Positions 18,833 through 51,963 of a DNA stretch of 64,000 nt are shown one piece after another. Position 1 is the first letter of the stretch. Each line of letters starts with the position of its first letter. The notes below the pieces were generated by a model, which had not been told where the DNA came from, did not search any database, and saw nothing but the letters and a program-made list of their open reading frames with translations. Position numbers and translations under genes: made by a program. The stretch is from Clostridium sp. BJN0013 (lineage in GTDB: Bacteria > Bacillota > Clostridia > Clostridiales > Clostridiaceae). The DNA is taken from the NCBI RefSeq assembly GCF_040939125.1, contig NZ_CP162495.1, forward strand, positions 2,604,001-2,668,000, written 5' to 3'.

Positions 18833-19154
18833 ACTTTTATAGGATATTCCCCAGTTTCCAGATATCTAAAATATTGATTTGGTGATAGCTTGGCCAAATT
18901 CCATTGATAACGATCATTATTATAATAGTCCATATAATTATCAACTTCTTGCTTAAGTTCATCGAAGGTACTACACTTATCAATATGTATTTCATCTTTC
19001 ATATGTCCGAAGAAGGATTCTTGAGGGGCATTATCCTAGCAGTTCCCCCTTCTGGACATAGATTGCCTAATTTCTTCTTTTAGTATAAGCTCTTGGAACT
19101 TAATGCTGGTATAATCGATTAAGAAAAAGAGATTGCTCCCTTTCCCTCATCTAA

Positions 19155-19189
19155 GAACCGTACGTGAGAGTTTCCCGCTCATACGGCTC
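19155..19189 (-). ncRNA. Group II intron domain V
   Basis: On the minus strand the 35-base segment begins GAGCCGTATGAG and ends CTCTCACGTACGGTTC with a GGGAAA-type loop. It has the conserved catalytic hairpin shape of domain V. Domain VI follows with a purine-rich stem before the 3' splice site at 19114/19113. Confidence 0.88.
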
Positions 19190-19207
19190 AAGCATTTCTT
19201 CACCCTT

Positions 19208-20691
19208 TCAGGCAGCAACAAATGTATGCAGTTTTATCTTTCTTTTATCAAAATAGTCCTTGTCTAAGAAAGGTGTTTTTATGATCTGCAATTTTGGATA
19301 TCTGACGATTTTAATCCGTCTCAAATTAATTAGACTGTACTCGTCCGTCTTGAAAAGCCATCTTTTCCAACCTTTTTCATGCCAGTATTTATTTAGTCTC
19401 CACCATTTGTTCTTATTTGGGTGTCTATGTTTTGCCCATTGCTGTAGTAAGTGATAAAGGGTGTTGTTAATATTTGAAAAGGCTTTACTAGCAACCACGT
19501 GTTTGTGATAATTTGTCCAGCCTCTTATGACTTGATTAAGCCTTCTTATTAAGTCAGATTGGGTGCTAGCTTTCCCCTCCTTAAGGATTATTGTGGAACA
19601 TCTCCTAATTATGTTTTTAATAGAACTTTTAGAAGGTTTAACTATTAATTTCCCACTGTATTTCTTAAATGTCCAGCCAAGAAAGTCAAACCCTTTGTCG
19701 ATATGTGTGATTGTAGTCTTTTCTTCTGATAGTGTTAGACCTCTTGATTGGAGGAATTGACTAACAGTAGTTTTAAGTTCTTCAGCAATTTCTTTTGAGT
19801 TTGCAGTAATAACAAAATCATCAGCATACCGAATCAAGTTCACTTTAGTTTTGGCTCTGTAATGATTTTCTATTTTACCTTTTGAATTTCTATGATATTT
19901 ATCTTGAATCACTTTTTCGAGTCCATCTAATGTCATATTTGCATATATACTTGAGATTGCACCGCCTTGTGGCGACCCTGTTTCCGTTGGGAACAGCTTT
20001 TCTTCATATATATATCCCGATTTTAGGAACTGCTTCATAATAATTTTATCCATTGGTATATTGTTTTGTAACCATTCATGGTTAATGTTATCAAAGCAAC
20101 CTTTAATATCGCCTTCAAGTATCCATGTCGGAGAACACTTTCTAGCTAATACACAAAATATCTGCTCACAGGCATCTTTTGCACTTCGTCCACGGCGGAA
20201 TTCAAAGGAAATGGAATCACCTTTTGTTTCTGCGATTGGCTCAAGCGCTAGTGCATATAATGTTTGCATTGCTCTATCATACATTGTTGGTATACCTAAT
20301 GGACGTTTCTGTTTTTTACCTTTCTTTTCGATGTATACTCGTCTTAAAGGTTTTGCTTTATAGTTTTTGTCAGTAAGTGAAAGCACAGCTTTCATCTTCG
20401 AAGCAGAGGTAGACCATAGTTTTTTGTCTACTCCAGACGTATTCTTCCCTTTATTTGTTGTTACTTTTCTTACAGCATAAGCCTTAGCTGAAAAAGAGTG
20501 GGTTAATAAGTATTGTAATCTTTTGGCTTTATTATTGTCCCCTTTTTTTTTGTTGCCTTAGCGATTCGGGTTTGTAGTCTATTAACATCGAATTCAACTT
20601 GTTTCCAGTCAATTGTTTCCCATTGAAATTCAAGTGATTTCGTGTCTTTTAGTCTCTCGGTTTTATCCGTCGTTGAATTACTAAAATTCAT
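19208..20691 (-). pseudogene. ltrA: Group II intron reverse transcriptase/maturase, frameshifted
   Basis: Intron-encoded protein needed for splicing and retrohoming. The N-terminal part (20691-20503, EFQWETIDWKQVEF) and the main part (frame ending 19208) are in different frames. The switch falls in an A9-G4 run near 20543-20556, a one-base indel. The main part has the RT active site RYADD, the GSPQGGAISSIYAN motif and the maturase X region (LNQVIRGWTNYHKH). It ends soon after X and carries no HNH endonuclease domain. A sequencing error in the homopolymer is possible. Confidence 0.85.
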
Positions 20692-21845
20692 AAATATATA
20701 CTCCTTTCCTGCTAAGAAATACCATAGGATAAGTCTGCACTCTTTCGAATTAGGGCAAATTTTGAACCCTTATCTGTTTTCATTACAAAATCAGCATTCG
20801 CTTTTTATCCTTTTCTTCTGCCCTCTATGTCATTTCGCCCCTTACGGTTAGATACCTCTCGATGGAGGAACATATAGGGTTTACCAAGTTCCACATAATA
20901 CATAATTGTAAATGCCTTAGGAGTCATCTTTAAACCGGGAGTTCTTTATCCATTCGCATTGGTTTAACAGTTGGCCTTTGCTCGACTCCTTACCATTTTG
21001 GTCAAAGCGTTTCAGCCTATTTCGCTTTCTCCAGCGTAACGATTCCTACAATGATTCACTTTACGTTCTCCATAGCATTCTTACTCTAGCAGTTGTCCCA
21101 GCTTAGGCTACTCGAACTTCCACATTGTCTCGTGAGCTTTCTAACCCAAACGTTACCATTCACGCTAGTCACGATAGAGTTACCCCGAATGGATGGGGCA
21201 GTCTTACGACAATGTATTACGCGACTTCTTGTCGCACGTGGCATCCTTGATCAGAATGAATTAATGTTTCTTTTGTTAAGGAAATGCCATAGTCACGTAT
21301 CAATATATATACAGTTTCTAGTACAAAGTCAACTTCTAGGGAATCGCTTAAGACATATGATAATATTTGTTTTGTAAAAGCATCCATAATGGTGGAAAGG
21401 TAAGCTTTCTGGGAATTACCATAAACCATATATGTTATATCTGTCAATAAGACCACTCTTGCTCCATGCTCCTTAAATTCACGATTTAGAAGATTTTCAG
21501 CAACATTATTTGTTTTTAAAGCCTTCGCCATTCTCCAGTAAGGGTTTGCTTTTCTTATAGGGCATTTCAAATTAAATTTATTCATAAGACAGCTTATTTT
21601 CTTCTGATTCATTCGTATACCCTTATTCAATAATCGCATATAGATTCCACGTTTACCCTTATCATAACCACGAAACTGATAGGCATCTAAAATGAGCTCA
21701 AAATCCTTCTTATCCTGCTCATCTTTTTTGTTTCCTGCTTTCTCTGATGATATCCAATTGTAATAACCAGACCTAGAAACACCAGCACATTCACACAACC
21801 AGCTTATGTTCAGCAGATTATTGTCTCTCTGCAACATTTGCTGAA

Positions 21846-39407: not shown

Positions 39408-40034
39408 ATGAGTTATTATGAAGATATTTGTTTTTTAGGAAATTGGAATTTAAATGAGGAGCAAGGAACTCTTAATATTGAAAAGACAGGAGAAACATAC
39501 AAGTGTACTTGGAAAATAAATAAGGAAGATGTTCAAAATGAATATTTAGGAATTGGGATGCTTGTTGATAACCAACTCCTTATATCAAGATTTTCTAACA
39601 AAGTGCATGGAGGAGGAGTAGGTTTATATAGACCAATAGGTGACTTAAGGTCAAATTCTGCACTTTGGGCTTCTACGCAAAATTTCAATACATTAGATTC
39701 TGGAATCGCATTAAGAGAAGATACCAGTCAAGACTTAGAAAGGCAATTATAAAGTTAGATATTTCATTAAAGGAAATGAATCTCCAACTTATGATTTAAG
39801 AATTCTTAAAAATGAAAAAAATAATGTATACTCACTGAATTGGTCTGTAAATGATAAAGTAATATTGCATGGAATTGAATGATGAATAAAGGACAAATGC
39901 CTCTTGTTTATGGTGGGACAAACTTTGATTATGAATTAGTTATTTTAAGCATTGATAATAAAAATAGATTAAGTAGTAAATGTGCCTTATTAAGTAATAG
40001 TTGTATAACTGAAGAAGTTTATACAAAATATTAA
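39408..40034 (+). pseudogene. Hypothetical protein with two frameshifts
   Basis: A single coding region is broken twice. 39408-39752 encodes FLGNWNLNEEQGTLNIEKTG and KVHGGGVGLYRPIGD. The next frame (about 39753-39881) gives NESPTYDLRILKNEKNN and VNDKVILHGIE. The third (about 39886-40034) gives GGTNFDYELVILSIDNK. The two halves repeat a beta-rich unit (YKCTWKIN...GIGM against YSLNWSVN...HGIE). GGAGGGG precedes the ATG. The family is not recognised. Confidence 0.65.
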
Positions 40035-41040
40035 ATTTAAATTATCATTAATATACTACGAATTTGTATGTTGTTAATACATAAAATTCTTATATTGTTT
40101 ACTAACTTTAACTAGAGTAAAAATACCCCTAGTTCTATTTTTTTGTAAAAGCACCATAAAAGAACGTTTATGGGATTAATTTTCTTAACGTGGGTTTTGT
40201 CGGTTTTGTTAGCTGCACCCCATATTGAATCAAAACATAAGCTAAATCAATTGTAAGTTCAGAAAACATAGAAACTTTTATTTTATCTGATTCAGTGTAA
40301 GATTCTGGTCTTCCATATCAATTGTGTTGTATAACATAAACAGTATTCATTAATAAATTGTGTTGCATTAAACAGTAGTACTTTAACATATACATCCACT
40401 TAGTACAATACAATTGATGTTGTGTCGCGTAAAAATTTTTATTACCATATAATTACAGCGTCGAGGGCATTTTTGTTTCTGTTACTACACAAGTCTTAAG
40501 TTTTTGGTAAATTTTAGTGTGTGTAACGGGAATTTTTGTACCGTTACTACACATACCCCAAATATCTGAATAATCTCCCTTATCTTTTATACACATCATA
40601 AAACTATTTTACAGCATTTTTTCTTATTTTTCTAGTTTTACATTTATATCTATTTTTATATTTCATATGGAAATTTTATAAATTCCTATACACTAAAAAA
40701 ATGTACTTGAATCTTAAAATAATGTAAATGTTGAAATAAATAGCCTTGTAGGTTGTATTGACATCAGTTTTAAGATTCAAGATTACTTATGTTATCAAGA
40801 TATAATTTAAAAAAATCTCAAATTCAATTATACAATTATATATGTATAATTTGTAAATAAATATAAAGGGACTGTCTTAAAAAAATAACATATTTTTTTA
40901 ATTTGCTCTTAGTAACTACACTTTAACTATATACTAAGTAAGGGAAATTTTTGTTCAACCCTCCCTTGGATTTAATATAATAAGTGTTATACCAAGATTG
41001 TTTTAAACGTAGGACAAAAGTTCTGTAAGAGAAACTCTTA
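40035..41040. other. 1-kb intergenic region with remnants and an inverted repeat
   Basis: A minus-strand open stretch 40168-40317 (SDKIKVSMFSELTIDLAYVL) looks like the end of a lost gene. At about 40515-40555 a hairpin GTGTGTAACGG / CCGTTACTACACA occurs, and GTTACTACACA is repeated about 65 bp upstream. At 40866 the motif GGGACTGTCTTAAAA resembles an IS end. No intact gene is seen. Confidence 0.4.
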
Positions 41041-41244
41041 TTATTCATTTAATTTTGTAAGATCTTTTGCATACCACTCTGTGAATCCACAATTTGGACA
41101 AACAAACGGAAATAATTCTGTTGGTTTCAAGTTAAATAAATGTTTACGTGGCGTTTTTGCTACAAGCATAGAAAAAGTATTGAATTCAATGTGGCATTCC
41201 ACTAAGTTAGCATTACATTTTGAACATTTTTTTAGTTCTGTCAT
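41041..41244 (-). CDS. Small zinc-ribbon protein
   Basis: 67-residue protein with two CxxC knuckles, CSKCN near the start and CPNCGF near residue 50, which make one zinc ribbon. Similar small proteins are common in Firmicutes and have no proven function. It lies about 380 bp downstream of the carbamoyltransferase on the same strand and inside the inverted-repeat segment. AGGAATG lies upstream of the ATG. Confidence 0.75.
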   Translation of the reverse strand: MTELKKCSKCNANLVECHIEFNTFSMLVAKTPRKHLFNLKPTELFPFVCPNCGFTEWYAKDLTKLNE

Positions 41245-41626
41245 AATTAAAACATTCCTTTCATTTTCAATAAAATTATTTTAGGTATTTTTCATTTAAA
41301 AACAACTCAAAGATTATAATGATATTTTGTGGCAAGTGAAAAAATGACTTATTTTCAAATAAATTATGCAAAAAGTGTAGTGATGAAGCATAGCACAAAA
41401 TATACTAGAAATTAACTATATATTACACAAGTGCTTTTCCAGTGGAGTTCTTAAACAGCTGATATATTAAGAAATAGACTGTATTGTACATGTAATTTCT
41501 TTTGTATGATATATTTATTTTTTGAAGACGATTTTTAATGTTTATAAATAGATGAGAAAATAAAAATTGCTTGTAAGCGTATCTAGAACCTTATTAATAG
41601 ACATCACATCAAGTAACATATCTAGG
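41245..41626. other. Intergenic region after the carbamoyltransferase
   Basis: I looked here for a precursor peptide. Two short minus-strand frames exist, MLLDVMSINKVL... (25 codons) and MYNTVYFLIYQLFK... (22 codons), neither with a convincing ribosome binding site. Nothing is called. Confidence 0.35.
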
Positions 41627-43309
41627 TTATAAAGTTATTAAACGATTTGTCCATAAAATAAGAAGCTCATCAACAATTCTTTTTTCATTTTTACCATCAT
41701 TTAAATTAAATTCTTGAATTAAGTCTTTTAAAGTTTTCTTTCCATCAAAATTTTTAAGTAGATAATATATCTGTTTTGAAATAGAAAAGACATATTCTCT
41801 ATCAAAATTAAATGTAATATAATAATCATTACATATTTCATTAAAAGAAGAAAACTTTTTTGTCTCACAAAGTAAAATATGAGGTACTAAATTTGGGATC
41901 ATATTTAAATACTTTTTGTAGTCATTTTTTTTCTTGGATATTATGTAATTATCAATAATAAGATAATTGAGTTTTGTTGTCAAGAAACATACTATAGAAT
42001 CTTCCACAGAATCCACAATTGGTTCAGCATTGTTATTAAATGATGTATTAAGTAAAATGTGAACTCCTGTAAGTTTACTGAATTCATTAATTAAACTCCA
42101 ATATTTTACATTGGTTGATTTTGAAACAGTTTGAACCCTAGCAGTTCCATCTATATGAGTAACTGCACCTAAAATAGGTTGCTTTTCTTCTTTCACTTTA
42201 AGAACAAAATTCATAAATGGAAATTGTTTTTGATTTGTAGGTAGGATAAAATATTGATCAATATATTCATCCAAAACAGATGGTGCAAAAGGCCTATAAG
42301 ACTCACGTTTTTTTACCATCTCATTAATAATAACTTTATTTTGAGATGGTCTTGGGTCTGCAAGAATACTCCTATTTCCCAAAGCCCTAGGGCCAAACTC
42401 AGATCGACCCTGCACCCAACCTATAACAGAGCCTTCTGATAGTAATTTTGCTGTATCTTTTTCTATATTATTTGATTTTCTAAAGTTAATGAACTCATGC
42501 CATTTGTTTAAGGAATCCAGTATTTCATTAGAATCTCCGATATTTGTACCAAAATAGACATTATCTAATCTAGAAATATTGATATTTTTTTTATTGTTTT
42601 TAATTATATGTAATGCTGCACCTATTGCACCTCCAGCATCATGTGCTGCTGGTTGTACAAATATATCTTGAAATAGACCTGAGTATAATAATTTCCCATT
42701 TAATGAACAATTATGAGCAACTCCACCAGCTAGGCATAATTTTAAATGACCAGTAACCTTACTGTATTCTTTTAAAATGTGTAATACAATTTCTTCTAAA
42801 GAGTACTGCAATGTTGCTGCAATATTATCACCCATACCATCAATTACAAGGACGAGACTTTCATCAAAACCAGAAAGAGCATAGGTACTTTCTGCATGTG
42901 CAATATGATGAGGAACAAAAATTATTTTATTATCTTCTACATCCTCACCAAAGGCTTCTATAACAGCACGGTGAACATAAAATCGAGCATCATAAAATTC
43001 TTTTTGTTTTCTATCTAATAAGTACATTTCTTTCAGAACAGAATTAATATAGGTTTCATCAAAGTTTACTGCAATTGCATCAATATCTTTAAGTATTAAG
43101 TGATTACTATATAAACAGAACTTCATGGCAGATATGGGTGCTTTATTTGTATGTTTGATTCTATTAAGTCTTTCTTCCTCTATTCCAGAGATTAAAATCC
43201 CATCTTCAACTAGTACAGCGGCAGCATCATGACCAAAACCATAGGTATTTGAAATAACACTCATTTCAAATTTTAATGGGATAGACATAGTTATTCCTAA
43301 AATTCTCAT
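41627..43309 (-). CDS. NodU/CmcH-type carbamoyltransferase with C-terminal PqqD-like domain
   Basis: Enzyme that would transfer a carbamoyl group from carbamoyl phosphate to a hydroxyl or amine via carbamoyl-adenylate. About 560 residues. The N-domain has GHDAAAVLVEDG and the metal site HHIAHA (134-139). The C-domain has LAGGVAHNCSLNGKL, GRSEFGPRALGNRSILADPR, RESYRPFAPSV and LLNTSFNNNAEP. About 100 residues normally present between IDGMGD and the LAGGVA block seem absent, so activity is uncertain. Residues 465-560 form a winged-helix tail (QIYYLLKNFDGKKTLKDLIQ) like PqqD/RRE domains that bind peptide leaders. GGGAGG precedes ATG 43309. It is last in the export operon. Confidence 0.85.
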   Translation of the reverse strand: MRILGITMSIPLKFEMSVISNTYGFGHDAAAVLVEDGILISGIEEERLNRIKHTNKAPISAMKFCLYSNHLILKDIDAIAVNFDETYINSVLKEMYLLDRKQKEFYDARFYVHRAVIEAFGEDVEDNKIIFVPHHIAHAESTYALSGFDESLVLVIDGMGDNIAATLQYSLEEIVLHILKEYSKVTGHLKLCLAGGVAHNCSLNGKLLYSGLFQDIFVQPAAHDAGGAIGAALHIIKNNKKNINISRLDNVYFGTNIGDSNEILDSLNKWHEFINFRKSNNIEKDTAKLLSEGSVIGWVQGRSEFGPRALGNRSILADPRPSQNKVIINEMVKKRESYRPFAPSVLDEYIDQYFILPTNQKQFPFMNFVLKVKEEKQPILGAVTHIDGTARVQTVSKSTNVKYWSLINEFSKLTGVHILLNTSFNNNAEPIVDSVEDSIVCFLTTKLNYLIIDNYIISKKKNDYKKYLNMIPNLVPHILLCETKKFSSFNEICNDYYITFNFDREYVFSISKQIYYLLKNFDGKKTLKDLIQEFNLNDGKNEKRIVDELLILWTNRLITL

Positions 43310-43349
43310 TATATTTCCTCCCAATATACCATATAAAAAATTTAATAGC

Positions 43350-44285
43350 TTAGCGTTGAATTCTACTAAATTGTCTTAATAGAAACATATATATAAGTAG
43401 TAAAACAATAGATGTTCCTCCAATGATTAATATTTGTTCAGTTGGGAATATATTTTTTACCAAAACTTCTCTAAACCCTTTTTGTATAGGAAGATATTTA
43501 TTAAAATTGCTATTTAAACTTAAAAGTTCTAAAAGCACTAATATAACCATTATTGGAGATGTAATAAGCATCATTTGTTCAATTTTTCTAAAGGGTAAGC
43601 TAATAAGTCCAGAAAAAATGCTTATAAAAAATGAAGTAATGAAAATCATGGATAATATAGCAAAAGTATTGTTATTCAATTCTTGAGTAATTAACAAAAA
43701 GGTAATCAAAGTAGAAGCAGTACAGAGAAATCCAAAAATAGTTTTACTTATTGTAAATTCAAAATATGTTAATGATGAAAGCATTAATGAAGACAAGGAG
43801 TCATTCTTATTCTCACTAAGGAAAACTATAGGACTCCCAATCAATCCTACCATTATTACAATAATAACACATAACAAAAAAGAAAATTTATCTTCATTTG
43901 GTTCATTATTTAAAATTTCTACTTTAACCTGTGTAGGATTAGATGCAGTTAACCCTTTTTTAATAGTACTTATGAGATTTATATCTTTTGTATTACAATA
44001 AATAATTTTTTCTTCTACACTTACAACAGCATCTATTTTTTTTTCGTTCAATTGTTCTAATCCATCTGAGACTGTGTTACTATATGAGATATTTGCGTTA
44101 TCAAAATTTAATTTATCATTTATGTTTGAATTGGATACTACACATATTTTTACTTTGTCTACATTCTTTAATGCTGGCATATAAAATATAACTATTGGAA
44201 TTACTATAAATATGAGTACAAGAATCCAATATTCTTTTATATCTTTTTGTAAAATTGTCATTATTCTCTTAAAAGAACCTTTCAT
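43350..44285 (-). CDS. ABC-2 type permease
   Basis: 311-residue membrane subunit with an N-terminal helix, an extracytoplasmic domain (about 30-130), and five helices after residue 140, the last with a basic end. This fits the ABC-2 exporter fold (YhgE/DrrB-like). The ATG has AAGGAGGG upstream and overlaps the stop of the preceding permease by 4 bases. It should pair with that permease and the ATPase at 45229. Confidence 0.85.
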   Translation of the reverse strand: MKGSFKRIMTILQKDIKEYWILVLIFIVIPIVIFYMPALKNVDKVKICVVSNSNINDKLNFDNANISYSNTVSDGLEQLNEKKIDAVVSVEEKIIYCNTKDINLISTIKKGLTASNPTQVKVEILNNEPNEDKFSFLLCVIIVIMVGLIGSPIVFLSENKNDSLSSLMLSSLTYFEFTISKTIFGFLCTASTLITFLLITQELNNNTFAILSMIFITSFFISIFSGLISLPFRKIEQMMLITSPIMVILVLLELLSLNSNFNKYLPIQKGFREVLVKNIFPTEQILIIGGTSIVLLLIYMFLLRQFSRIQR

Positions 44286-45232
44286 ATTCTTTCCCTCCTT
44301 AACTTTAGCATAAATATGTAATTTACAATCAAAATCATAATAGAAAATACTATCAATAAAATAAGCATATCCAAAACAAAAATCCAGTTATTTTCTATTG
44401 CATTGTAAAAAGCATTTGAAAGTTTGTTAAATGGTTTAGTCAAGAAGGAAGGAAATATCATAACAATAAACATAAAAGGATAGAACATAACTGAAACCTT
44501 TTTACTATCAGAAAAAATACCCATAAACATACCAAGTGATATGTAAATCAACCCGACCAAAAATAATAAGATTATTTCCTTTATAGATATTCCTTGTGAC
44601 ACATAAAAAAATAACGCATCAATGGAGAACAATAATATGGTACATATAGTCTTAGAAAAAATAATTTCATAATTTTTAATGGGTGAAAGGATAAGTGCTG
44701 ATAAAGTTTTCTTTTCATCAACAAACATTTTATATGGCAATAAAATACATACAAAAGTTAAAATAAAAGTAAAACTATTCAGTAAATATTTGAATTTATC
44801 CATATTATTTATATCTGGTTGGTATTCTCCTATATACTTAATTTGAAAATCTGTTTTATTTAAAATTTGTTTTAGGACTGAACCTACATATTTTGAATTT
44901 GTAGTTGATTTATTTTCTACAACTTTTATTATTTTACTTTTTTCATCATAAAAAACAAAGGCATCTACATCATTTTTGTTTTCCACAATTTTATAACCAT
45001 TGGCGAGATCTTCTACATAATAAGAAATTTTAAAGGCACCTTGAGTATTTTCAATATATTGACTCATCATTTTATCATTTGAAATGATGGCAACCTTGAG
45101 TACATCAGGCGAAGTATTTGCCACCTTTGCATTAAATTTAGTAAAAAACATAATAAAAATGGCAGGCATCAATACATATATGTAATATTTACGTATACTA
45201 AATTTAATATCTTTCCATAACATCTTCTTCAC
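44282..45232 (-). CDS. ABC-2 type permease
   Basis: 316-residue membrane protein of the same architecture as its neighbour: one N-terminal helix, a soluble external domain, then about five helices (FTFILTFVCILLPYKMF and following). The two subunits probably form a heterodimer. Its start overlaps the ATPase stop by 4 bases, showing translational coupling. Confidence 0.85.
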   Translation of the reverse strand: MKKMLWKDIKFSIRKYYIYVLMPAIFIMFFTKFNAKVANTSPDVLKVAIISNDKMMSQYIENTQGAFKISYYVEDLANGYKIVENKNDVDAFVFYDEKSKIIKVVENKSTTNSKYVGSVLKQILNKTDFQIKYIGEYQPDINNMDKFKYLLNSFTFILTFVCILLPYKMFVDEKKTLSALILSPIKNYEIIFSKTICTILLFSIDALFFYVSQGISIKEIILLFLVGLIYISLGMFMGIFSDSKKVSVMFYPFMFIVMIFPSFLTKPFNKLSNAFYNAIENNWIFVLDMLILLIVFSIMILIVNYIFMLKLRRERI

Positions 45233-46053
45233 TCCTTCGTAAGTAATAGATAAATTTCTTCCAGTGATGGTTCTGAAGAATGAATGGATTTTAATTCTTC
45301 ATGAGAAATGTTAGCTAACTGATTAATATTCTTATAATCAAACTCTTTTATACCAGACTGGGTAGTTACTATAATTTTATTTGAACCATACTTGGATTTT
45401 AGTCCTGTTATACTATCATTAGCAACAATTTTACCATTTTTAATAATTGCAATCTCATCACAAAGTTCTTCTGCCTCATGCATATAATGTGTAGTAATAA
45501 ATATAGTTGTACCATTTGATTGTAATTTCTTTATTAACTTACGAATTTCAACTGCAATATTTACATCAAGACCTGATGTAGGTTCATCTAAAAAAATAAT
45601 CTCAGGAGAATGTAATAAAGCTCTTGCAATTAAAACTCGTTGTTTATATCCTTTTGATAATTTTTTTATTTTATATTTTGAGTAATTAGTTAGTTCTAGA
45701 TCAATTATTACTGAATTAACTCTTTCTATGTTAACGTTATACAACCTCGAAAAAATGATTAGATTTTCTTTAACTGTTAAATCTTCATAAAGGTTCATTT
45801 GTTCTGGAACTACACCTATTTTACTACATAATTTTTTTTCTTCTTTTACTGGATTACAGTTAGAAACCTTGATATTCCCAGCAGAAGGTATAAGTAACCC
45901 AGTAAGCATTTTTATCGTTGTACTTTTACCTGCACCATTTGTACCAAGAAATCCAAATATAGCACCTTTTTTAACATTGAAAGAGATATTATCTACAGCA
46001 ATTTTTTCTCCAAACTTCTTTGTAAGATTTTCAACACTTATAATATAATCCAT
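45229..46053 (-). CDS. ABC transporter ATP-binding protein
   Basis: 274-residue ATPase with Walker A GTNGAGKST, signature LSKGYKQR and Walker B IIFLDEPTSG, of the CcmA/drug-exporter class, plus a short C-terminal extension. It lies 48 bp downstream of the radical SAM gene and overlaps its permease gene. It would energise export of the product made by the radical SAM enzyme and carbamoyltransferase. Confidence 0.94.
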   Translation of the reverse strand: MDYIISVENLTKKFGEKIAVDNISFNVKKGAIFGFLGTNGAGKSTTIKMLTGLLIPSAGNIKVSNCNPVKEEKKLCSKIGVVPEQMNLYEDLTVKENLIIFSRLYNVNIERVNSVIIDLELTNYSKYKIKKLSKGYKQRVLIARALLHSPEIIFLDEPTSGLDVNIAVEIRKLIKKLQSNGTTIFITTHYMHEAEELCDEIAIIKNGKIVANDSITGLKSKYGSNKIIVTTQSGIKEFDYKNINQLANISHEELKSIHSSEPSLEEIYLLLTKE

Positions 46054-46101
46054 AAAATCACAACTAATCCTTTCTTACATAATCATCCCAAGGAATATCT
46101 T

Positions 46102-47325
46102 CTACTTATAAAATTCACCAGACTTTATTCTATTAAGCATATTTTTTGAAGTTATACAAAACTCATCCGTCATAGGACCATTCAATTGACCAGTTAATTC
46201 GTATGCTTTAGCTCTGCAACCTCCTGGACAAAATTTAAATGATTCACATGTTACACAAGAATTTATTTTATTTATTTTTAAATCTCTTAATTTCTTAAAT
46301 GCTTCTGCATTTTGCCAAAAGTCACTAAGTTTATTCTCTTTAATATTTCCACCACAAAATTCTTTATATGTTTTAAATAGAGTACATGGATATACTTCAC
46401 CTTTTGCACTTATAAAACAATTTGAAATTGCGGCAGTACAACTATATTCACGTATTACTTCTTCGTTACCAAATTTATTTTCATTTTCTTTATCAAAACC
46501 CATTCCAGCCCTAAAACTTTCATTTTTTGCTGACACTAAAAGGTTATAAACTCTTAATTGTTCTAGTTCTGATTGGTCTAACATTAAGTCTTTGTTTAAA
46601 GTTGCATTACCTTTATCTATTACTTCAGATAATTCAATCTCTTTTACTCCTAATTCTTTTCCAAGCTCAAGAATATCATTATATTCATGAAAATTTTTCT
46701 TGGTTATAGTGCAAGCTAAGCCAATATCTAAGCCTTTTTCTTTACATAATTTCATTGCCTTGATTGTAGTATTAAAATTTCCTACTCCTCTCAAATAATC
46801 ATGGGTTTCTGCTTTTGCACCATCAATGCTAAATCGAATTAGTACATTACATTCTTTTATTTTATCTAGGAATTCTTCAGAAATTAAAGTTCCATTTGTA
46901 AATACAGTTACTCTAATATTTTTTTCTGTACATCTTTTTAAAATCTCAGAAAGGTCTTCCCTTAATAAAGGTTCTCCACCAGTTATAACTATTTTAAATA
47001 CTTTAAGCATACTTAATTCATCTATAAGACTAATTATTTCCTTTGTAGATAATTCTTCTGTAGAATGAGAGCCACCTTCCCAGCAATGTTTACATTCTAG
47101 ATTACATCTCTTTGTAATCTCAAAAATTGCACTATCTATTTGAGATTCTATGTCTATAAGGTTTATAAATCCTCTTTGATCATCATCTGCAGTCATAAAC
47201 TCAGAATTTTCAATATCAGCAATTACAGTATTTACATCATCTAAAAGTTCCTCATAGGATTGATCTTTAAATATTGTATGAATATATTTCGCAATATAAG
47301 AAAATGGCAAAAAGATATACCCCAC
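46102..47325 (-). CDS. Radical SAM/SPASM protein, N-terminus probably shortened
   Basis: Peptide-modifying type iron-sulfur enzyme of about 407 residues. The radical SAM cluster motif is CNLECKHC (Cys74, 78, 81). The C-terminal SPASM domain has CFISAKGEVYPC, CVTCESFKFCPGGC and a last Cys in DEFC, enough for two auxiliary clusters. Residues 1-45 (SYEELLDDVNTVIADIENSE) look like the end of a PqqD-like domain. The only start is a GTG without ribosome binding site, and the frame stays open upstream to the preceding permease stop, which suggests a 5' deletion. SPASM enzymes modify peptides, but sugars or lipids are possible. Confidence 0.87.
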   Translation of the reverse strand: MGYIFLPFSYIAKYIHTIFKDQSYEELLDDVNTVIADIENSEFMTADDDQRGFINLIDIESQIDSAIFEITKRCNLECKHCWEGGSHSTEELSTKEIISLIDELSMLKVFKIVITGGEPLLREDLSEILKRCTEKNIRVTVFTNGTLISEEFLDKIKECNVLIRFSIDGAKAETHDYLRGVGNFNTTIKAMKLCKEKGLDIGLACTITKKNFHEYNDILELGKELGVKEIELSEVIDKGNATLNKDLMLDQSELEQLRVYNLLVSAKNESFRAGMGFDKENENKFGNEEVIREYSCTAAISNCFISAKGEVYPCTLFKTYKEFCGGNIKENKLSDFWQNAEAFKKLRDLKINKINSCVTCESFKFCPGGCRAKAYELTGQLNGPMTDEFCITSKNMLNRIKSGEFYK

Positions 47326-47378
47326 TAAAATGAAAGTCGTTAAGTTAATATTTAAGTATAAGATAAATTTAAAACACC

Positions 47379-48044
47379 CTATATTTCTTTTCTTTCACAA
47401 ATAGAGCATGAAAGTAAGTATGATGAAATACCCATAATACTAATAATTACTATACCTAAAAACGGTAAAATAATTTTATTATTCATTGTTAAAAATAAAA
47501 TTTTATTCAAAAATTCAGGTGTAAAAAAACTGTTCTTCTTTAATAATATTGAAGGCAATACCCATATAACAAATGCAGGTATTATGGATAATATCATAGA
47601 TATAATATTACCGTTTTCCATACCTAATTTATAATATAGAGGATATTGGCAGAAACAAATTACAGCAGCTGCGAATCCTGCCAGGTATATTAATATAGTT
47701 TCTAACTGCCCCAATGCATTTGTGTTATGGAGATATATAATTAAACTTCCACTCATTATCCAAATAATAAGCATCATACTAATTAAATATAGAAATCTTC
47801 CTAAAACCATACTTGAAATTTTAGAAGGAAGCATATAATACATTTTATCATATTTTCCGTTACTTTCAGCACTAAATGGCATTGCTGCAACTAATATTAA
47901 AAAGAAAAATAAGTTACCTAAAGCCATAATAGATGACTCTTTCAATACAGCGAAAATGAATACTAATGGAACTATCAGTAAATATTTTAATGTACCCCCT
48001 ACAATTTTAAAATCTAACTTTAAATAATTTATAGCTCTCACCAT
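47379..48044 (-). CDS. ABC-2 type permease of the GntR-controlled exporter
   Basis: 221-residue protein with six predicted helices, a compact ABC-2 permease. It starts 2 bp after the ATPase gene stop. It belongs to the upstream YtrAB-like unit rather than to the radical SAM cluster, although all are on one strand and may be one transcript. Confidence 0.8.
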   Translation of the reverse strand: MVRAINYLKLDFKIVGGTLKYLLIVPLVFIFAVLKESSIMALGNLFFFLILVAAMPFSAESNGKYDKMYYMLPSKISSMVLGRFLYLISMMLIIWIMSGSLIIYLHNTNALGQLETILIYLAGFAAAVICFCQYPLYYKLGMENGNIISMILSIIPAFVIWVLPSILLKKNSFFTPEFLNKILFLTMNNKIILPFLGIVIISIMGISSYLLSCSICERKEI

Positions 48045-48046
48045 AG

Positions 48047-48910
48047 TTACCCCCTCATACCATTTATATGAAATACTACTATATCTTCAACAGAAGGTTT
48101 TTCAGTAAGTAATCCTTTTTTTATATATTTATTGTCTCTTGAATGAATTAGTCCCTCAAAACCAACACTAGATTTTTTATAGCCGATTAGCTTTTCTTTT
48201 ATTTGTTCTGTTAAATCTGCAGCACCGCCTTTTACCAATAAATAACCCTCCAAAACATTATCCTTTGTATCATTAAATATAGTTTTACCTTTATCAATAA
48301 AATAAAGATAGTCTGCTATTTTCTCTAAATCACTCATGATATGAGTAGAAAATAAAACACTTCTTTTACCATCCGATATATACTCTTGAAGCAATCCTAA
48401 TATTTCACTTCTAATCACAGGGTCAAGTCCACTTGTTGGTTCATCCAATAAGAGTAACTTTGTCTCTCTACAAAGTACACTGGCAAACATTAGTTTTATT
48501 TTCATTCCCTTTGAAAAATTTTTAATCTTTTTATTTTGCGGCAGCTCCCATCTATCCATATATGATTTAAATTTGAACTCATCAAATGATTTATAAAAAC
48601 TTTTAAAACTATTTTTTACATCCTTTGCTGTAAAGCACCCTGGAAAATAACATTCATCTGCAATATAACCTATCATATCCTTAAACCCAATTTCATCATC
48701 AGTGTAGTTCTTGCCAAACACTGTTATTTCTCCACTGTCCCGTTTAAGCTGCTCCATAATAAGTTTAATTGTAGTAGTTTTACCTGCCCCATTCTGTCCT
48801 ATATAACCTAAAATATATCCCTCAGGTAACTTTAGATTAATATTTTTAAGTTTAAAATTTCCAAAACTTTTATTTAAATCTTTTATTTCAAGTGCATACA
48901 TAGATTTCAC
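48047..48910 (-). CDS. ABC transporter ATP-binding protein, YtrB-like
   Basis: 287-residue ATPase: Walker A GQNGAGKTT, signature FSKGMKIK, Walker B LLLLDEPTSG. This type pairs with GntR/YtrA regulators and responds to cell-wall antibiotics in Bacillus. Its start overlaps the GntR stop by 4 bases. Confidence 0.93.
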   Translation of the reverse strand: MKSMYALEIKDLNKSFGNFKLKNINLKLPEGYILGYIGQNGAGKTTTIKLIMEQLKRDSGEITVFGKNYTDDEIGFKDMIGYIADECYFPGCFTAKDVKNSFKSFYKSFDEFKFKSYMDRWELPQNKKIKNFSKGMKIKLMFASVLCRETKLLLLDEPTSGLDPVIRSEILGLLQEYISDGKRSVLFSTHIMSDLEKIADYLYFIDKGKTIFNDTKDNVLEGYLLVKGGAADLTEQIKEKLIGYKKSSVGFEGLIHSRDNKYIKKGLLTEKPSVEDIVVFHINGMRG

Positions 48911-49278
48911 TCCTTCATCAAATTTTCTAAAATCATCACCAGTTCTTCATTTGATATACTAGCTAATTTTGCATTTTCAATGGCAGAGATAAATGCTTCT
49001 TCAATACGTTTTAAATATTCTTCTCTTACCATCTCATTATCTTTAGGAAGCACAAAACTCCCCTTTCCTTGTATAGTAGCTATGAATCCTTCAGCTTCAA
49101 GGTCAGAATAAGCCCTCGTAGTTGTAATAACACTTATGCCCAAATCCTTCGCAAGTTGACGTATAGATGGCAGAAATTCATTTTCGGCAAGATCACCGCA
49201 CATTATTTGTTCCTTAATCTGTGCCTTAATTTGAGCATAGATAGGTAAATCAGATTTATTGGAGATTAGTATTTTCAA
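48907..49278 (-). CDS. GntR-family regulator of the YtrA type
   Basis: 123-residue protein made of a GntR winged helix (PIYAQIKAQIKEQIMCGDL, LPSIRQLAKDLGISVITTTRAYSDLE) and a short dimerisation tail, which is the YtrA subgroup. It is the first gene of the ABC operon and has a palindromic operator 20 bp upstream, so it probably represses the operon until a cell-envelope signal or ligand appears. Confidence 0.92.
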   Translation of the reverse strand: MKILISNKSDLPIYAQIKAQIKEQIMCGDLAENEFLPSIRQLAKDLGISVITTTRAYSDLEAEGFIATIQGKGSFVLPKDNEMVREEYLKRIEEAFISAIENAKLASISNEELVMILENLMKE

Positions 49279-49300
49279 TTAGTGACACCTCCTTACCCAA

Positions 49301-49328
49301 TACTGTATATATTAAATTATATACAGTA
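49301..49328 (-). promoter_or_regulatory. GntR/YtrA operator
   Basis: Inverted repeat TACTGTATATA-N6-TATATACAGTA directly upstream of gntR; AT-rich -10-like sequences lie inside it. Confidence 0.8.
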
Positions 49329-49359
49329 TAATGTTTATTGTCAATATTGTGTTTAAAGA

Positions 49360-49562
49360 TCAAGTGATTCTTAGGTTCAGGTGGAGTTTACTTATGAGGA
49401 ATACTTTTCTCCATTTGAACCTTATTAACAGTATTCTTAGTGTCTTTAGCACTTATAATACGTTATCCTTTAGGGGAAGAACTTATCCAGGTGCGTAGCA
49501 GTGCTTATCCCCCACTTTGAAGAAGATGGGGGTATTAGCAATGGTAGCCTTCGGATAAAAAA
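49360..49562 (-). repeat. 200-bp noncoding repeat, copy 2 (inverted)
   Basis: Inverted copy of 38844-39044. Its outer end forms a clear hairpin (CCCCC ... GGGGG around 49508-49533), which is weaker in copy 1. Both copies point their common 22-bp terminus inward, bracketing 10.3 kb. Confidence 0.8.
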
Positions 49563-49719
49563 TTTATCAAATAGCATTCAGTATCATACCCTGTAGTTTT
49601 ACAGTGGACAAATAAATTACATATCTTTGTAAGGGGTCAGACTCCTTACAAAAACCGGTGCAACTTTTGTTTTCAAATGGTATAATTTGCATATACAGAA
49701 AATTGGGAGATGGGTAAAG

Positions 49720-49821
49720 TTGAAAAAACATTTTAAGAGTTTTATTTTAATAATTTTTTCTTTAATACTTATTATTAGCGTTGGGTGTAATAATTCAAAA
49801 GCAACTAATAATAAAAATTAG
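49720..49821 (+). CDS. Truncated lipoprotein (signal peptide only)
   Basis: 33-residue frame with a GGAGAT ribosome binding site and TTG start. It encodes a complete lipoprotein signal (KKHFKSFILIIFSLILIIS then VGC) followed by only 11 residues. A TATAAT lies at 49681-49686 and a strong terminator at 49859-49900. It is either a remnant of a larger lipoprotein or a genuine mini-lipoprotein. Confidence 0.5.
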   Translation: MKKHFKSFILIIFSLILIISVGCNNSKATNNKN

Positions 49822-49858
49822 GTGAAAAATCTTAGTTTTTTAATGCTTGTAGGGCTGC

Positions 49859-49900
49859 AATATAAGCTATTTTTATAATTATATAAAAATAGCTTATATT
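49859..49900 (+). terminator. Strong rho-independent terminator
   Basis: Perfect 19-bp stem (49859-49877 and 49882-49900) with a 4-base loop, then TTTTACTTTT. A smaller hairpin TTTGTAAGG/CCTTACAAA lies upstream at 49626-49652. Confidence 0.88.
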
Positions 49901-50395
49901 TTTTACTTTTTAGTATACCTTAAAATGATACACTCTTATATAGACATTAATATTACACGATTCATCACATAAACTTCCGTCGAACTCACGTTATTAGGAC
50001 CTTTTCCATCCAGGTAATCCTTAAAAATTCTCCTTTCAATAGATATGGGCTTTTAGTTATCTAAATAAAAAATTTGTGTATTAATCCTTAATAATAGTTT
50101 TATTAATCATTTTCTTATAAATATTAATTTTTTTCTCTAAGTTCACTATATTATTCTCTATATTGCTTTTTTGAGTATACAATCTGTCCATTTGCTTTTC
50201 CAATAATTTCAAACGTTCTCTCAGCGTACTGTCTCCCTCATATCTCAGCTTAGAATAATATTGAATTTCTTTAATTGGCATATTTGTTTCTTTTAATCTA
50301 AATATAAAATTTAACCATTCTATATCTTTTTCACAATACACTCGCCTATTTATTTTATCTCTATTAGGATAAATCAAACCAATTTTCTCATAATA

Positions 50396-50691
50396 ACATT
50401 CATTCCTTTCGCTGTGCTCAAGGCACAAAAATTAATGAAAGAGTGATTAAAATTACCAATTACTGTGAATAATATAGACAAGTATACAGGTGTACTACAG
50501 AGCACGGCGGGGTGAGTGTGATTGCACTTCACTGTAATCCGTATAATAACATGTGCCGATTACTCTTTTAAGTACAAATAAGTGTGCCCTAGGGCACGTA
50601 AGTTAATCTTTGTTTAAACAAAGACCGTTTAAAAGTATGAGTATTCAGTCAACACCTGTGTACTTTATTTTTTTATTTGTAGGTGATATAA
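50396..50691 (+). ncRNA. Candidate IS110 bridge RNA region
   Basis: In IS110-group elements the noncoding end before the transposase encodes a structured RNA that pairs with donor and target DNA. This end is long and contains hairpin-forming sequences, e.g. GTGCCCTAGGGCAC (50583-50596) and CTTTGTTTAAACAAAG (50610-50625). The assignment rests on position and family knowledge. Loop complementarity was not verified. Confidence 0.5.
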
Positions 50692-51963
50692 ATGTTAAAA
50701 ATCGTTTATTCTATTTGTTGCGGTATTGATGTTCACAAAAAATTTGTAGTTGCAACTGTAACATCAACCAATGAGAATAACATCACTACCTATGCAACCA
50801 AACAATTCAGTACTTACTCAAAGAATCTTTTCCATTTAAAAGAGTGGTTATCTGAGCATAACTGTAAAGAAGTTTGTATGGAAAGCACCGGAAAGTACTG
50901 GATACCTATCTATAACATACTTGAAGATTCCTGTAATATTACTCTGGCTAACCCAAAGTACGTTAAAAACATTCCCGGCAAAAAAACTGATGAAAAAGAT
51001 TCTCTATGGCTTGCAGACTTACATAAGCATGGATTAGTTAAAGGAAGTTTTATTCCTCCAAAGGCCATAAGAGAACTACGAGACCTTATGCGCTATCGCT
51101 TTAAACTTACAAATTTCCGTTCAAGTGAGAAAAACAGATTCCAAAATTCATTAACAGTTTCAAATATCATGATTTCAAGCGTAGTATCAGATACCTTTGG
51201 TAAATCATCATCAGCTATAATTAAATATGCCATGGAGCATCCTGATAAATTAGATATAGACTATACTCAATTTCTACACAAGAGTATGTTATCTAAGGCT
51301 GACGAAATTAAGATTGCTATGCAAGGAAGCATCTCTAAAAATCAAACAGCAAAGATGTCTATATGCTTGAATCATTATGATTATATTAACAATTGTATTT
51401 CTCAACTTGATACTGCCATTTCATTAATTTCAAGTGAATTTAAGTCACAAATTGAGCTTATTGCTTCTGCCCCTGGGATAACTACACAATCTGCTACAAC
51501 TATAATTTCTGAAATTGGAGTGGATATGTCAGTCTTTCCAGATGCTAAACATCTGTGCTCTTGGGCAGATCTTACACCACAAAATAATGAAAGTGCTGGC
51601 AAAAAGAAAAGTGTTCGTATAAGCCGTGCCGGAGCTTATTTAAAGCCAATACTTATTCAGTGTGCTAATGCAGCAATAAAAAACAAGTCCTGCCCATACT
51701 TTAAATATCGTTATGAAAGTATAAAGAAAAGACGTGGGCACAAAAGAGCAATTATTGCTATAGCAAGAATGCTTTTAACCTGTATTTATAATATGCTTTT
51801 AAAAAATGAAGCCTTTGATAATTCTATTCATGAAAAATATCTAAAAAGAGAAAACACTTCTCGACATTTTCAACCTAATATAGATAGAATTATTTTATTT
51901 CTTCAAGCTCAAAGCTTTGAAGTAACAAAAGTAAGTCAAGAGATATCACCGAAAATAAGTTGA
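50692..51963 (+). CDS. IS110-family DEDD transposase
   Basis: 423-residue recombinase. The N-terminal RuvC-like domain shows CGIDVHKKFVVATV and CMESTGKYWIP and KKTDEKDSLWLADL. The C-terminal Tnp_20 domain shows APGITTQSATTIISEIG and the segment with the conserved catalytic Ser (PQNNESAGKKKSVRISRAG). The frame is intact. It is probably active together with an RNA from the left end. Confidence 0.95.
   Translation: MLKIVYSICCGIDVHKKFVVATVTSTNENNITTYATKQFSTYSKNLFHLKEWLSEHNCKEVCMESTGKYWIPIYNILEDSCNITLANPKYVKNIPGKKTDEKDSLWLADLHKHGLVKGSFIPPKAIRELRDLMRYRFKLTNFRSSEKNRFQNSLTVSNIMISSVVSDTFGKSSSAIIKYAMEHPDKLDIDYTQFLHKSMLSKADEIKIAMQGSISKNQTAKMSICLNHYDYINNCISQLDTAISLISSEFKSQIELIASAPGITTQSATTIISEIGVDMSVFPDAKHLCSWADLTPQNNESAGKKKSVRISRAGAYLKPILIQCANAAIKNKSCPYFKYRYESIKKRRGHKRAIIAIARMLLTCIYNMLLKNEAFDNSIHEKYLKRENTSRHFQPNIDRIILFLQAQSFEVTKVSQEISPKIS

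Follow-up and report, generated by a model that had tools for sequence, protein, structure and literature searches.

We analysed a window of 64,000 nucleotides, the whole stretch at positions 2604001-2668000 of the 4.1-Mb single-contig genome of Clostridium sp. BJN0013 (rated 100% complete), in which a minus-strand run of five genes (47325 to 41627, counted from the first letter of the window) encodes a radical SAM/SPASM protein, an ABC ATPase, two ABC-2 permeases and a carbamoyltransferase (CT). On balance, we favour the view that this run is what is left of a cluster for tailoring and exporting a specialised metabolite, which has been truncated and whose tailoring is probably non-functional. 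The CT lacks the segment that lines its acceptor pocket and the front of the radical SAM protein looks cut, and a worn-down cluster therefore seems more likely than a new working pathway. All five genes lie where a preliminary description, made from the sequence alone, had placed them, with Pfam matches above cut-off (Radical_SAM and SPASM, ABC_tran, ABC2_membrane_3 twice, Carbam_trans_N and C), and the translational coupling described there is seen in 4-bp overlaps at 45229-45232 and 44282-44285. The operon of five genes that it proposed was found as a gene run, but one that extends to eight genes with a trio upstream.

The carbamoyltransferase and its missing segment

The best solved structures for the CT are GdmN and NovN, both for the window sequence alone and for a profile of the window, Nostoc and NolO sequences. 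Residues 167-565 (numbered from TTG 43324, which gives an open reading frame (ORF) of 565 aa; the likely start is ATG 43309, with the ribosome site gggagg) share 53% identity with a Nostoc mirabile protein (locus L005) and 49% with NolO of NGR234. This Nostoc protein was the sole relative in a scan of genome contigs, and 325 of 72,556 plasmid records matched, with 80% or more of the query covered in 95; among the 30 best plasmid matches, rhizobial NolO and its kin showed 46-49% identity. In a FastTree phylogeny of 17 sequences that left out GdmN and NovN (434 core columns, C-terminal domain removed), the window protein and six CTs with a C-terminal domain, two cyanobacterial and four rhizobial, formed one clade (support 0.954), in which it was placed beside the rhizobial/NolO group (0.776). 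The grouping of NolO with the GdmN/NovN subclade rests on our own comparisons; the GdmN paper lists GdmN, Asm21, Asc21a/b, Orf7* and NovN. In the alignment, iron ligands H139, H143, D162 and D229 match GdmN H133, H137, D156 and D333, and general base H32 matches GdmN H27, while the YrdC-like part is complete (PF16861 matched over 1-170 of 170). Judged from its sequence, the CT is a descendant of the GdmN/NovN/NolO group; as the acceptor-pocket segment is absent, we claim this descent and not the activity of the group.

Aligned with GdmN, the CT jumps from GdmN residue 160 to 271, with residues 161-270 absent; about 104 residues are gone from its first domain, an in-frame loss of ~310 bp. Of twelve relatives aligned, one (L025) was left out because the wrong ORF had been taken for it, and the segment is present in all 11 others (six with the C-terminal domain, five without) at a length of 103-123 residues. 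Lost with it are acceptor-pocket helix 2 (186-196), loop 3 (197-203) and loop 4 (238-246; GdmN numbering), that is, the elements of a complete pocket, together with the MGLAPYG region. The CT does retain its dimer domain, the YrdC-like part, the general base and all four iron ligands. The 11 relatives share 83 invariant columns, of which the window protein keeps 72; nine fall in the gap and two are changed. Could the gap be an assembly or sequencing error, the gene being intact in the organism? The sequence flanking the gap is normally conserved, which would agree with this, but the genome is a complete single contig and, to our knowledge, an in-frame loss of this size is atypical of read errors, so we give this explanation hardly any credence.

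The loss of such genes has precedent. A genome of the same family (G057) carries a broken CT relic (L010:4586-5591, contig C11), in which NolO 127-220 and 429-660 are matched in three frames and near which no other operon gene was matched, and nolO is truncated in S. fredii HH103 according to PMC4881576.

The radical SAM gene and the eight-gene run

The radical SAM protein has the CxxxCxxC motif and the SPASM cysteines, and its neighbours in the PDB are PqqE, 5wgg (which we take to be CteB) and SkfB. None of the 25 NCBIfam maturase models listed, out of 91, matched above cut-off (best 190 bits against 500). Matches were found in 3 of 200 family and 6 of 291 class genomes, own genome included, and none of the relatives in these samples exceeds 35% identity (best non-own 34-35%). 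Several features suggest a shortened front. The GTG start, 53 bp behind the permease gene of the trio, has no ribosome site (ribosome sites were judged by eye throughout), and upstream of it the frame stays open for no more than ~23 codons before a stop within the last part of that permease gene. The alignment to 5wgg begins at residue 28 against 61 in 5wgg, and the CxxxCxxC motif lies at residue 111 and 125 in two distinct relatives with an N-terminal domain against 74 in the window protein (loci L036, L045 and L047, which gave no ORF that passed the filter, were left out of this comparison). Our reading is that the front was probably lost as the operon came to lie behind the trio, although the protein could be naturally short.

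No terminator-like site lies between the trio and the radical SAM gene; the only one in 40900-50800 is at 50597 (2.4 expected). Upstream of all eight genes is a sigma-70-like consensus match, a candidate promoter for the whole run that we treat as a lead only, promoter-like sites numbering 67 in total against 65.5 in shuffles. Most of the other genes in the run do have a ribosome site, although the ATPase has a weak one; the site of permease 1 (gaaggag) precedes its likely start. Best matches of the trio ATPase in 12 other genomes of the genus show 42-50% identity, and neither a CT nor a similar operon stands behind the trio relatives in the four loci read. At one locus (L053) two divergent radical SAM genes lie beside a trio relative; these are presumably unrelated.

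Several observations weigh against a decayed cluster. Away from the gap, 72 of 74 columns that are invariant in ten relatives are unchanged in the CT (intact members 74/74 to 74/77), which also keeps, of the columns invariant in five CTs with the C-terminal domain, 159 of 180 (88%; intact members 76-99%). Its iron ligands and general base are intact, the gap does not shift the reading frame, and each of the eight ORFs of the run is open. Five other relatives of the radical SAM protein have CxxxCxxC at residues 16-35, the N-terminal domain being naturally absent, so that a short front need not be damage, and Pfam and NCBIfam scans found no remnant of a RiPP recognition element (RRE; RiPP, ribosomally synthesised and post-translationally modified peptide) in the first 64 residues. 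The conservation around the gap would fit either a clean deletion that happened recently or a protein that has taken on a different role and is still under constraint. We favour the former, because in GdmN shortening loop 4 alone strongly lowers or abolishes activity.

A worn-down cluster could have arisen as follows. The ancestral core would have comprised a homodimeric O-carbamoyltransferase of the GdmN/NolO type, a radical SAM/SPASM enzyme and a DrrAB/NodIJ-like exporter. The run now sits behind the GntR-ABC trio and is probably read from its promoter; the joining may have removed the leader-binding front of the radical SAM protein and upstream material, possibly including a precursor gene. 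At most, the CT would still make carbamoyl-AMP without holding an acceptor, and the tailoring function would be gone, or its damage would be very recent; the exporter may stay useful. If the system works, carbamoyl phosphate and ATP would give carbamoyl-AMP in the YrdC/Kae1 core, where the residues for this step are present, the carbamoyl group would pass to a hydroxyl of the acceptor, bound, as in GdmN, in a pocket to which the partner subunit contributes the remaining part, and the DrrAB-like pump would export the product.

Table 1. Features of the run and the region upstream of it, in window positions
Feature	Position	Strand	Basis
GdmN/NovN/NolO-type CT with large internal in-frame gap	41627..43309	-	Pfam Carbam_trans_N/C, identities, GdmN/NovN structures, ribosome site
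CT gap junction, residue 166 (GD) / 167 (NIAATLQ)	42826..42827	-	alignments with relatives and GdmN
CT C-terminal domain, PqqD/RRE fold, equivalent of GdmN dimerisation domain	41630..41923	-	
ABC-2 permease 2	43350..44285	-	PF12698 above cut-off; ribosome site
ABC-2 permease 1, likely start ATG 45223	44282..45232	-	PF12698 above cut-off; ribosome site
ABC ATPase, DrrA/NodI-like	45229..46053	-	PF00005; TIGR01188 256 bits, under cut-off 312
Radical SAM/SPASM, CxxxCxxC at residue 74, front apparently truncated, GTG start	46102..47325	-	PF04055 and PF13186; PDB neighbours
ABC permease (ABC2_membrane_5), upstream trio	47379..48044	-	PF13346
ABC ATPase, upstream trio	48047..48910	-	PF00005
GntR-family regulator, upstream trio	48907..49278	-	PF00392
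Sigma-70-like match 12/12, candidate promoter	49316..49344	-	consensus match only; site number equals shuffles

The C-terminal domain, neighbourhoods of relatives and possible working pathways

The preliminary description had the CT end in a PqqD-like winged helix, and this fold is borne out: by sequence and fold, the C-terminal ~100 residues are of the GdmN dimerisation type, and the domain is a PqqD/RRE fold and the counterpart of the domain through which GdmN dimerises (for the CT, dimerisation is predicted). A working RiPP pathway would have its precursor elsewhere, with the radical SAM enzyme modifying the peptide, the CT carbamoylating it and the RRE-fold end binding the leader. Apart from the fold, this agrees with the PDB neighbours of the radical SAM protein, with the occurrence of CTs in the crocagin and std RiPPs, with the RREs fused to PF02543 proteins reported by the RRE-Finder study (PMC12710340), and with weak PqqD/RRE-type matches that the window domain alone of eight shows (E 0.024, 0.17 and 0.14, all under cut-off). 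Yet the same domain dimerises GdmN, the known acceptors of the GdmN group are not peptides and the radical SAM front is short. Nor was a precursor recognised by eye among the listed ORFs of at least 20 aa on both strands of 40000-50500, for which ribosome sites of small ORFs were not scored, in agreement with the preliminary description. A 67-aa ORF at 41041-41244 has a PF09855 Zn-ribbon match just under cut-off. We therefore regard a working RiPP pathway as improbable. Modification by a radical step and carbamoylation followed by export, as first proposed for a peptide or small molecule, still draws on the gene set and the PqqD fold, but its peptide part is weakened to one of several readings.

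A bolder variant is that, in a dimer of the GdmN type, the acceptor pocket was opened up by the in-frame deletion and that the RRE-fold domain turned (back) into a leader-binding site for a radical-SAM-modified peptide encoded elsewhere, which the CT would carbamoylate. We hold this to be very unlikely; if true, it would be the first RiPP to combine radical SAM chemistry and carbamoylation. Of more general relevance, the domain through which GdmN dimerises has the RRE fold, so RRE matches in PF02543 proteins can mislead RiPP mining.

To place the gene set, the CT was searched in overlapping samples of 13 genus, 206 family, 225 order, 391 class and 398 phylum genomes (E limits 1e-30, 1e-30, 1e-70, 1e-90 and 1e-90, the stricter of which are too tight for relics like the one in G057); for many CT loci the flank read was no more than ~1.5 kb. 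Through the C-terminal domain, only the own genome matched in the class and phylum samples, and three phylum matches end at query residue 569-570 of 664. In the Nostoc order (E 1e-110) a CT was found in 7 of 243 genomes, two of which, that of L005 and that of L023/L029, matched through this domain. The preliminary description had proposed looking for the same set elsewhere: no CT with the C-terminal domain has a SPASM neighbour in the stretches read, and the window radical SAM protein had no tblastn match at 1e-4 in L005, L010, L016, L022, L023 or L029 (L049-L051 were judged by annotation only). Against the view that the two genes do not go together elsewhere stand remote radical SAM matches beside two CTs without the C-terminal domain (L019: 24%, E 2e-12 and 4e-12; L009: 22%, E 1e-7), and in G057 a radical SAM relative (34%) is present besides the CT relic, although the two lie on separate contigs.

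These neighbourhoods bear on a working non-peptide pathway, in which a glycolipid or lipopeptide with hydroxyl groups, synthesised elsewhere, would be O-carbamoylated by the shortened CT, much as Nod factors are by NolO, and exported by the DrrAB-like pump. Besides the position of the CT in the tree, two loci are in line with this: nolO adjoins nodI-nodJ in NGR234, and in Bradyrhizobium sp. 62B its kin adjoins nodI and a permease gene. At the R. etli locus nodD1, nolE and hemN are present, and the part of the S. garamanticum locus read has neither exporter nor nod genes. The Nostoc CT lies in a nonribosomal peptide synthetase (NRPS)/polyketide synthase (PKS) stretch, between a TauD-like gene, preceded by an acyl-ligase/NRPS gene, and a PKS gene (domain names by eye), and that of L029 has cupin-like and MFS neighbours, with glycosyltransferase-like genes further off (by eye). 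The own genome has a single place with condensation domains (L059, 2158001-2176000), with two matches in one 1900-aa ORF at 2158-2173 kb, acyl-ligase-, thioesterase- and phosphopantetheinyl transferase-like ORFs and an ABC pair (by eye), which could supply an acceptor in trans. Nevertheless, this locus is ~0.47 Mb from the operon with no link between the two, the CT is without its acceptor-pocket segment, and SPASM genes are missing around its C-domain relatives in the stretches read. We consider such a pathway unlikely, and a truncated cluster remains our preferred reading.

Radical SAM genes also occur with exporters elsewhere. A stretch of G057 (L030:4397-9699, contig C74) encodes a radical SAM/SPASM protein that has an N-terminal domain, together with an ABC ATPase and two ABC-2-like permeases; MFS and binding-protein-like genes come after these (by eye). 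The components resemble those of the window operon, but their order differs and there is no CT. In another genome (G174, L031:1188-16503, contig C8) a ~9.6-kb block with radical SAM/SPASM and ABC exporter genes appears twice in tandem, either a true duplication or a circular element read twice. Within the window, a transposase gene, presumably IS110-like, lies just past the upstream end of the run (50692-51963), a 114-aa ORF with no Pfam match at E 0.1 lies between a LysR-like gene and the operon (39408-39752), and a minus-strand group II intron (19114-21200; two Rfam matches) has a reverse-transcriptase-like ORF in between.

Comparison with known systems

The maturases PqqE, 5wgg and SkfB share the radical SAM core and SPASM domain with the window protein, whose N-terminal RRE is incomplete or absent, which has no recognised precursor and which falls under the cut-off of the 25 listed NCBIfam models. 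The std and crocagin RiPP clusters likewise contain a CT (StdF, CgnI), but have a precursor and other partners (YcaO, MNIO; dioxygenase), and 'radical SAM' never occurs in the main text of the std paper. NovN, the novobiocin carbamoyltransferase (PDB 9s2t), acts in the novobiocin pathway and has the segment that the window CT lacks, their alignment jumping from ~168 to 272. GdmN, the geldanamycin 7-O-carbamoyltransferase (PDB 7vyj and others), has the Kae1-like, YrdC-like and C-terminal RRE-fold dimerisation domains in the same order as the CT and shares its iron ligands and general base; the window CT is without GdmN 161-270, the walls of the acceptor pocket, and is accompanied by a radical SAM gene and an ABC exporter rather than a PKS. 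NolO, which mediates Nod-factor 3-O-carbamoylation in Sinorhizobium fredii NGR234, retains the segment and is surrounded by Nod-factor genes, with no radical SAM gene in the stretch read, yet resembles the CT in its 46% identity, its C-terminal domain and its position next to an ABC exporter, NodIJ.

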